A stretch of DNA of 64,000 nt from Synergistota bacterium (GTDB lineage: Bacteria; Synergistota; GBS-1). This document shows positions 44,639 to 46,084 of the stretch, piece after piece; position 1 is the stretch's first letter; the number at the start of each line of letters is the position of its first letter. The notes under the pieces are model-generated. The model searched no databases and had not been told where the DNA came from. It saw only the letters and a program-made list of their open reading frames with translations. The stretch covers positions 84,459 to 148,458 of the forward strand of contig JANXBX010000001.1 in assembly GCA_025060595.1 (NCBI GenBank), read 5' to 3'. A program made the translations under genes and the position numbers.

Positions 44639-45871
44639 TTAAGCACTAACTATCCTCTTTGCCTTCCCAGCCGTCCTCTCAATACTTCCGGGAGGAAGTA
44701 TAACTAAATCTACACTTATACCAAGTTTATCTTTTAGAGCCTTAGAGACTCTTGCTGTAAGCTCATTTATATCACCTTTAAAGCCGTTAGCAAATTCACA
44801 TCTTACCTCAAGCCTTTTAAGATGTTTTCTTTCACCAACCACAAGCTGGTAGTTTAAACTAAGCTCACTAAAGCTTCCCAAAACAGACTCTACTTGCTTT
44901 GGAAACACATTAACACCACGAATTATAAGCATATCATCGCTTCTTCCCTTTATCCTATCTATCCTATAGCCATGAACACCACAAGGACAATCCCCATTTA
45001 CAAGCCTAGTTACATCCCTGGTTCTATATCTTATCATCGGTGTTGCTTCCCTGTTCAAAGTGGTCAGAACAAGCTCCCCCTCTTTACCAAACGGTAGAGG
45101 CTTTAAAGTTTCGGGGTCTATTATCTCAACAATAAAGTATTCATCATTTATATGAAGACCGTTCTTATAGGGGCACTCCATAGCCACACCAGGTCCCCAT
45201 ATCTCACTCAACCCATATATATCTAAAGCTTTCATTCCCAAGCCCTTTTCTATTTGAGACCTCATCTCCTCACTCCAAGGCTCGGCTCCTAATATTCCTA
45301 AGCGAAGTTTAAGCTCACTAGGAGATATCCCCTTTTCGATCAAAACTTCAGCAAGATAAAGAGCATAACTAGGAGTACAAGCCAAAACCGTAGTTCCAAG
45401 ATCCCTCATTAGTTCTATTTGCCTTTCAGTGTTACCACCAGATACAGGAATTACACAGCAACCAAGCTTCTCAGCTCCATAATGAAGCCCCAAACCACCG
45501 GTAAAAAGCCCATAACCATAAGCAACCTGAACTGTGTCATTCTCCGTCACCCCAGCAATTTTAAGACACCAAGCAACAAGATTAGCCCATTTTTCAATGT
45601 CCCCTTTAGTATAACTAACCACTGTAGGCTTCCCTGTAGTCCCTGAAGAGCAGTGAACTCTAACTACATCTTTCAAATCCGAAGCGGTAGCACCCCAAGG
45701 ATATCCCTTTCTAAGATCATCCTTAATCATAAACGGCAAATACTGAATATCCTCAAAGCTTCTCACATCTTCAGGCTTAATACCAATCTCATCCATCCTT
45801 TCCCTATACCAAGGATATCTCTCATAAGCTCTTCTCAAGCTCCCCCTTAAAGCTAGTAACCTCTTATCCAT
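44639..45871 (-). CDS. paaK: Phenylacetate-CoA ligase (aryl-acid CoA ligase, PaaK family)
   Basis: An AMP-forming ligase of about 410 residues that activates phenylacetate or related aryl acids to CoA thioesters. Motifs are VRVHCSSGTTGKPTVVSYT (P-loop), VAYGYGLFTGGLGLHYGAE, DIYGLSEIWGPGVAMEC and the C-terminal RIKGRSDDMLIIRGVNVFPKQVE. Anaerobes and archaea use such ligases with indolepyruvate:ferredoxin oxidoreductase, in either direction. ATG 45871 is 5 bases after GGAGGTG; GTG 45874 is less likely. A terminator hairpin and aromatic-rich leader ORF lie between its promoter and start, suggesting control by aromatic amino acid supply. Confidence 0.92.
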   Translation of the reverse strand: MDKRLLALRGSLRRAYERYPWYRERMDEIGIKPEDVRSFEDIQYLPFMIKDDLRKGYPWGATASDLKDVVRVHCSSGTTGKPTVVSYTKGDIEKWANLVAWCLKIAGVTENDTVQVAYGYGLFTGGLGLHYGAEKLGCCVIPVSGGNTERQIELMRDLGTTVLACTPSYALYLAEVLIEKGISPSELKLRLGILGAEPWSEEMRSQIEKGLGMKALDIYGLSEIWGPGVAMECPYKNGLHINDEYFIVEIIDPETLKPLPFGKEGELVLTTLNREATPMIRYRTRDVTRLVNGDCPCGVHGYRIDRIKGRSDDMLIIRGVNVFPKQVESVLGSFSELSLNYQLVVGERKHLKRLEVRCEFANGFKGDINELTARVSKALKDKLGISVDLVILPPGSIERTAGKAKRIVSA

Positions 45872-45904
45872 CACTACACCTCCCTAAAAATAAGGATAAA
45901 AATA

Positions 45905-45944
45905 AAGGCCGGAGGCTCCATTTTAAAATGGAGCCTCCGGCCTT
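45905..45944 (-). terminator. Attenuator terminator hairpin before paaK
   Basis: A perfect 20-bp inverted repeat with arms AAGGCCGGAGGCTCCATTTT and its complement. On the minus strand the stem is followed by TTTATTTTTA. It lies between the promoter at 46084-46056 and the paaK start at 45871, so any transcript from that promoter must pass it. In practice the AT centre forms the loop. Confidence 0.88.
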
Positions 45945-45991
45945 ACTCAGCCAAAACCCTGGCTTTACCCCACAGGGCTCAAACCGGAGAC
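45933..45991 (-). promoter_or_regulatory. Predicted antiterminator pairing in the paaK leader
   Basis: Segment GTCTCCGGTT (45991-45982), which is codons 18-21 of the leader peptide, can pair over 10 positions (seven Watson-Crick, three G-U) with GGCCGGAGGC (45942-45933) in the 5' arm of the terminator. The two pairings exclude each other. Between them, CCCTG/CAGGG (45957-45961 with 45973-45977) and AGCCA/TGGCT (45949-45953 with 45960-45964) are further competing stems. Confidence 0.6.
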
Positions 45992-46044
45992 CCTAAACAT
46001 CTAAAGTAGAAGACAAACAGATAAACAACATAATGTTGCCTCAT
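45979..46044 (-). CDS. Aromatic-rich leader peptide of the paaK attenuator
   Basis: A 21-codon ORF from ATG 46044 to TGA 45979. Residues 5-14 are YVVYLFVFYF, six aromatic residues in ten (three Tyr, three Phe); no Trp codon is present. The stop codon lies just past the antiterminator strand (codons 18-21), so a ribosome finishing the peptide would cover it, while one stalled at codons 5-14 would leave it free. There is no ribosome site: the ATG is 11 bases beyond the -10 box, implying a leaderless start. This is the design of Phe/Tyr attenuators such as the pheA leader, although the sequence is unrelated. Confidence 0.65.
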   Translation of the reverse strand: MRQHYVVYLFVFYFRCLGSPV

Positions 46045-46055
46045 CTTGATTCTAA

Positions 46056-46084
46056 AGTATATCATTCCAACAAAACCTAGTCAA
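46056..46084 (-). promoter_or_regulatory. Promoter of the paaK leader transcript
   Basis: TTGACT (46084-46079), 17 bp, TATACT (46061-46056) with TG one base upstream of the -10 (extended -10). The start point is predicted near 46050, giving a leader of about 180 bases before paaK. Confidence 0.85.

Follow-up and report, generated by a model that had tools for sequence, protein, structure and literature searches.

A putative Phe/Tyr-sensing leader-peptide attenuator upstream of a PaaK-type ligase gene in Synergistota

The window, a 64,000-nucleotide stretch of DNA from a Synergistota bacterium whose closest named relative is bacterium GBS-1, carries on its minus strand a gene for a 410-aa PaaK-family aryl-acid CoA ligase (44639..45871; ATG at 45871), and between this gene and the upstream panC lies a short open reading frame (ORF) rich in Tyr and Phe codons, followed by a terminator. 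This arrangement raises the question of whether a stand-alone ligase gene could be switched by the supply of aromatic amino acids, and what such a switch would serve. Attenuators of the pheL, trpL and hisL type control the phe, trp, his and ilv operons of proteobacteria, and a first-pass annotation of this DNA had proposed the same logic here. We consider it very likely, from sequence and folding analysis, that the element is a transcription attenuator of the ribosome-mediated kind, responding to charged Phe- and Tyr-tRNA and turning the ligase gene on upon starvation. The leader combines a cluster of Phe/Tyr codons, an intrinsic terminator between ORF and gene, an antiterminator that is freed by ribosome stalling (in silico only) and a codon choice that matches the pathway.

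Leader anatomy at the paaK locus

The extended -10 sigma-70 promoter claimed by the annotation was borne out as a promoter-like site (46056..46084; this and all features below are on the minus strand), in which TTGACT (46084-46079) is followed after 17 nt by TATACT (46061-46056), with TG at 46064-46063 before the -10 element and 10 of 12 positions matching. The site sits between panC and the leader. Its arrangement is the same in three related leaders, and in the four members of this leader family with upstream DNA examined (the window's, L114, L115 and L122) the -10 element lies 11–14 nt 5′ of the leader ATG. Since the distance in the window is only 11 nt and the leader has no Shine-Dalgarno sequence, its ORF would be almost leaderless; most other leader families, unlike this one, have GGAGG or AGGAG. 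In the window (-10 to ATG, 46056-46044), L114, L115 and L122, the RNA from which the sensor ORF is translated may have almost no leader of its own.

The 21-codon ORF, MRQHYVVYLFVFYFRCLGSPV, occupies 45979..46044 (ATG 46044-46042, TGA 45981-45979) and, as claimed, has three Tyr and three Phe codons between codons 5 and 14, namely Tyr at 5, 8 and 13 and Phe at 10, 12 and 14. This control region (46003..46032) ends with codon 14 at 46005-46003 and is separated by a 9-nt spacer (45994..46002), similar in size to that of other leaders, from strand A, GGGTCTCCGGTTT (45981..45993), which lies within the end of the ORF and forms the 5′ arm of the antiterminator. An intervening segment (45945..45980) with small hairpins inside the antiterminator leads to strand T (45927..45944), which is both the 5′ arm of the terminator and the 3′ arm of the antiterminator. 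Strand T′ (45905..45922), the terminator 3′ arm, follows across a loop at 45926-45923, and the U-tract TATTTTTA (45897..45904) completes the intrinsic terminator. The perfect 20-bp inverted repeat described in the annotation was found at 45944-45905, directly before TATTTTTA; it is 20 bp long as DNA and folds as RNA into 18 bp around a UUAA loop. The pairing proposed between the last codons of the ORF and the terminator 5′ arm could likewise be located, at GGGTCTCCGGTTT (45993-45981), and the paaK ATG stands beyond the terminator as claimed, preceded by its Shine-Dalgarno sequence AGGGAGGTG (45877..45885). The leader RNA folds with a z-score of -7.2 against dinucleotide shuffles, to which the terminator contributes most. 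A tRNA-Leu gene lies on the opposite strand after paaK, so the transcript is probably a single-gene one.

Competing pairings in the leader RNA

The annotation had held that a ribosome at the stop codon blocks strand A and that one held at the aromatic codons leaves it free, and this behaviour was reproduced in silico in the 32 leaders analysed. We folded only the RNA downstream of a ribosome with its A site on the last control codon, to the end of the terminator 5′ arm. Pairing of A with T then amounted to a mean of 8.4 expected pairs, versus 3.7 in dinucleotide shuffles of the intervening segment, and lay above its own shuffle control in 32 of 32 leaders, which are related, so that the Wilcoxon p overstates the evidence. 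With the ribosome at the stop codon there are no A:T pairs by construction, A being covered or behind and pairing across the ribosome disallowed. Full-length folds with just the ribosome footprint masked were discarded: they failed to distinguish the states, since bases on either side of the ribosome could still pair and since the terminator is mostly the favoured structure of the complete RNA.

The geometry is shared by these 32 leaders. Strand A begins about three codons past the last control codon, with a gap that is mostly 4–9 nt (9 in the window), which is about the reach of a ribosome beyond its A-site codon. The antiterminator forms 9–17 bp between the end of the ORF and the terminator 5′ arm; together with its nested hairpins it reaches -24 to -52 kcal/mol, versus -20 to -41 for the terminator, which it equals or exceeds in most leaders (-31.7 versus -35.9 kcal/mol in the window). 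The folds of the free RNA in 22 leaders, drawn from paaK, transporter, POR-type and ilv loci, are alike: each is a single extended hairpin that carries the stop codon in its tip or close to it.

The annotation had recommended looking for compensatory changes. The central pair of the GGGNCCC antiterminator core is U-A, A-U, U-G or G-U depending on the leader, with both sides changed and pairing kept; alignment-based RNAalifold recovered only a hairpin internal to the ORF, A:A′, and missed A:T because T is misaligned between families in the mixed alignments. The A:T pairings were accordingly read sequence by sequence, so they carry no formal covariation statistic. The A:A′ hairpin shows some two-sided changes, and stalling weakens it modestly on average and not at all in several leaders; on these models it could act as a 1:2 (anti-antiterminator) hairpin.

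From these pairings we infer how the switch would behave. Transcription would start just 5′ of the leader ORF. With enough Phe and Tyr, the ribosome would reach the stop codon and cover strand A, the T:T′ terminator would form and paaK would be off. Were Phe- or Tyr-tRNA short, the ribosome would wait on codons 5–14, its leading edge not quite reaching strand A; A would pair with T before T′ is made, and polymerase would read into paaK. In the window, the complete RNA favours the terminator at equilibrium in every state, that with a stalled ribosome included, and therefore the switch must be kinetic, as antitermination in classical attenuators is also thought to be. Without any ribosome, RNA made up to T likewise forms the antiterminator, which makes it doubtful that untranslated transcripts are off.

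Leaders on ligase and other genes across Synergistota

A ligase search over 81 genomes with extraction of upstream DNA revealed an F/Y-rich leader ORF and a terminator before many paaK copies. Scoring of 84 distinct upstream regions from Synergistota picked out 32 with a leader, and we added four second copies (L015, L017, L018 and L019) whose FSFIGAGP leader the automatic pick had missed; a contig-edge copy in G002, the leader of which is apparently on another contig (L265), was left out. The resulting 36 PaaK-type ligase genes have an F/Y run in 34 cases and a Trp run in two. The two paaK leaders of the window's genome (G000) read FYF and, at the second copy, YYVYYY; the corresponding runs are FRFYF and VYYYY in G003, and SFFFFF and FYFYYF occur in G019 (Thermovirga lienii DSM 17291, a species that NCBI places in Synergistota; over the 8 kb compared, its second contig matches CP003097.1 with 100% identity). 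Runs of YYYVYG and FSF are found in the g14 genomes and CFFEYYY in G023 and G047. The annotation had singled out loss of the ORF or of its aromatic codons, with the hairpin kept, as the outcome that would speak against it; F/Y runs were retained in two related genomes and phylum-wide, while sequence, length and stop position vary, which favours the attenuator reading. Tandem paaK pairs at L146, L148 and L152 have a separate leader for each gene, with Phe codons (FSF) in one and Tyr codons (VYSY) in the other.

A quick tree placed 31 leader-bearing ligases and one leaderless row in a single group (SH-aLRT 91) and the remaining leader-bearing ligases in two others, of which one is the Trp-leader pair; leader and ligase have therefore been joined or parted more than once. 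This pair consists of a divergent paaK paralogue in G033 and G020 preceded by WWWF and WWWY runs. At L172 and L174, the third paaK paralogue of G020 and G033, the leaders read WWWYRNRR and WWWFRDRR before the divergent PaaK-like ligase, which is possibly a candidate indole-3-acetate ligase. None of the 34 iorAB-adjacent paaK copies in Synergistota has a leader, and 0 of the 32 scored leader-bearing copies adjoin iorAB; these iorAB-paaK operons hold the same enzyme pair but are leaderless, and are presumably fermentative or otherwise regulated.

We then asked which genes lie behind similar RNAs, using a covariance model (R1) trained on 20 paaK leaders, all aromatic, and run over the 81 genomes. 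Forty sites beyond the known paaK leaders were read with their downstream genes, and domains were assigned for nine representatives. At twelve sites, Ile/Leu/Val runs precede ilvN, the gene for the small subunit of acetolactate synthase; wherever the DNA beyond it was read, ilvB or ilvC came next. Ile runs precede a POR gamma subunit gene at nine sites, with the ferredoxin, alpha and beta subunits also present in L254, and at three they lie upstream of, or close to, the gene for a PLP-dependent enzyme of threonine/serine dehydratase type. Aromatic runs precede transporter-like proteins or a solute-binding protein at thirteen sites; one further site probably belongs to the paaK gene of G002, and two more leaders with Ile/Leu/Val runs lack a clear gene. 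Among the sites read, paaK never follows an Ile/Leu/Val leader, and ilv never follows an aromatic one. This match between codon and gene was not built in, because the training set held aromatic leaders only, and the presence of Ile or Ile/Leu/Val codons on the same core before matching genes means that the codon run is very probably the sensor. The POR-type Ile leaders (IIIIIINAAP) are L254, L255, L256, L266, L267, L269, L273, L274 and L278.

The window's genome itself has the two paaK leaders (on C1 and C3), an ilvN leader (C1:5862-5995) and, on the minus strand of C2 from 8032 (L213), a leader MNIWADRIRDFGYYYFFFE with a YYYFFF run before an aro operon. The aro leader differs in sequence from the paaK leader and has a terminator and a competing pairing. 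Behind it lie genes for DAHP synthase, EPSP synthase, chorismate synthase and shikimate kinase/DHQ synthase, the last three named by eye from sequence and by search. With aromatic leaders on both the aro operon and the ligase, Phe/Tyr synthesis and the ligase appear to share the same signal.

Judged by sequence, the same core with an exchanged codon run, across paaK, ilvN, POR-type, PLP enzyme and transporter genes, is a portable phylum-wide module. The Ile leaders on POR-type 2-oxoacid:ferredoxin oxidoreductases suggest that Ile may be made via reductive carboxylation of a branched-chain acid and, more generally, the leaders suggest that amino acids may be rebuilt from organic acids in Synergistota. 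We are evenly divided on a broader reading, in which an antiterminator hairpin around the leader stop codon, retuned by its codon run, would control ilv biosynthesis together with the rebuilding of amino acids from carboxylic acids: Phe/Tyr from aryl acids by PaaK-type ligases, Ile from a branched-chain acid by POR-type enzymes, and a third ligase under a Trp leader of other sequence, so that fermenters would run degradation backwards when an amino acid is short. One core with exchangeable codons would also provide a natural attenuator set for testing core function. Outside the phylum, R1 matched nothing in the 12 genomes scanned, a negative result that is uninformative. In Syntrophobacterales (L066, L067, L083 and L087), paaK is preceded by short ORFs rich in Phe (e.g., MCGRLFPFRFFFFSGFSF) with hairpins after them, which may be an independent case.

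Role of the ligase and alternative readings

As to what the ligase is used for, we infer that it probably serves the salvage of aryl acids into Phe and Tyr. It would convert phenylacetate or 4-hydroxyphenylacetate to the arylacetyl-CoA, which an IorAB-type oxidoreductase would carboxylate to the aryl pyruvate, and transamination would give Phe or Tyr. Several observations argue for this role. Prephenate dehydratase (PDT) and prephenate dehydrogenase (PDH) are missing in G003, a 98% complete genome with two leader-controlled paaK genes, and both are likewise missing in several further leader-paaK genomes, among them seven (G009, G049, G063, G064, G070, G073 and G076) that also lack chorismate synthase. 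Five Clostridial paaK orthologues (L035, L036, L037, L048 and L106) are preceded by a T-box (RF00230), and with the specifier position read from the alignment, given the known T-box layout, four have UUC (Phe) and L106 is ambiguous by one base. Rumen anaerobes are reported to make phenylalanine from phenylacetate (Allison, 1965, as cited in PMC7356843); this is the pathway that the Synergistota regulation would serve, reported there for rumen bacteria and not for Synergistota. An iorA-like match, present in 81 of 81 genomes and above the family cut-off in 71, also fits this role. Against it, the scan of iorA loci turned up no leader. The window's genome has both PDT and PDH, so salvage here would be supplementary. 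If the salvage reading is true, a direction is assigned to a reversible step: a ligase usually annotated as degradative would build Phe and Tyr and be made only in shortage, and leader codons would predict the anabolic paralogues and the amino acid served, in a phylum with little described regulation.

The same starvation-on attenuator might instead control a ligase that activates another aryl acid, the aromatic amino acids merely serving as a signal. The window's ligase scores 508.8 bits against the PaaK equivalog TIGR02155, below the cut-off of 646.3, so an arylacetate is its putative substrate, even though the solved structures nearest to it are PaaK; the family covers a broad range of substrates, and IOR is without visible co-regulation. 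Such a substrate is nonetheless rather unlikely, given that the paralogues carry three codon types (Phe, Tyr and Trp), that the ligase and the aro operon share their sensing, that the Clostridial orthologues have Phe T-boxes and that leader-paaK is retained in genomes without PDT/PDH. Synergistota are amino-acid fermenters, which would fit the inverse logic, with the gene on in Phe/Tyr plenty and ATP gained from arylacetyl-CoA by fermentation of aromatic amino acids; in many leaders, moreover, strand A lies upstream of the stop-codon ribosome, and pairing across the ribosome shows when only its footprint is masked. Against this, the same RNA core precedes the biosynthetic ilvN/ilvB and ilvC, the iorAB-paaK operons expected for fermentation are the leaderless ones, the ribosome would occupy the entire loop between A and T, and in the window's leader family the stop-codon ribosome masks A itself. 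We regard the inverse logic as very improbable.

Two further readings would deny a ribosome-sensing leader altogether. That the hairpin is the ordinary intrinsic terminator of the upstream panC transcript, next to a chance ORF, would agree with its strength and its position downstream of panC, but a promoter-like site intervenes, copies in unrelated neighbourhoods keep the ORF, the spacing and the antiterminator pairing, and retuned codon runs precede other amino-acid genes; we rejected this combination on the ground of conservation, as an exceedingly slim chance. Slimmer still is that of a T-box, riboswitch or other Rfam-class leader: T-boxes do exist on the Clostridial paaK orthologues, where Stem I, specifier loop and T-box sequence are present, but the window leader matched neither the T-box nor any other Rfam family at gathering score.

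The starvation-on attenuator is of a textbook kind. Like the pheL/trpL/hisL type, it has a short ORF in which codons for the regulated amino acid are clustered, overlapping alternative pairings and an intrinsic terminator, and it is predicted to switch on upon starvation. It differs in that it occurs in Synergistota and targets a stand-alone aryl-CoA ligase, that its antiterminator has its 5′ arm inside the ORF and in most leaders forms a single extended hairpin tipped by the stop codon, and that one core is common to Phe/Tyr, Ile and Ile/Leu/Val versions. The uORFC-13-1 motif before aroF (Acholeplasma) and uORFC-8-2 before cysS are likewise leader-ORF attenuators predicted by comparative genomics outside the textbook operons (PMC8632094), but in other phyla and on other genes, and the likeness is one of description. 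The Clostridial paaK T-box also senses tRNA charging and controls an orthologous ligase, but binds the tRNA directly, without a leader ORF, whereas the Synergistota leader uses one. In the open-access literature, outside which most subscription papers lie, we found neither attenuation or T-box control of a phenylacetate-CoA ligase nor a description of such leaders in Synergistota; on this weak literature basis, the novelty would lie in the target gene, the phylum and the portable module. The 32-kb plasmid of Thermovirga lienii (CP003097.1; L291) carries genes for EPSP synthase, DHQ synthase, chorismate synthase, DAHP synthase and prephenate dehydrogenase.
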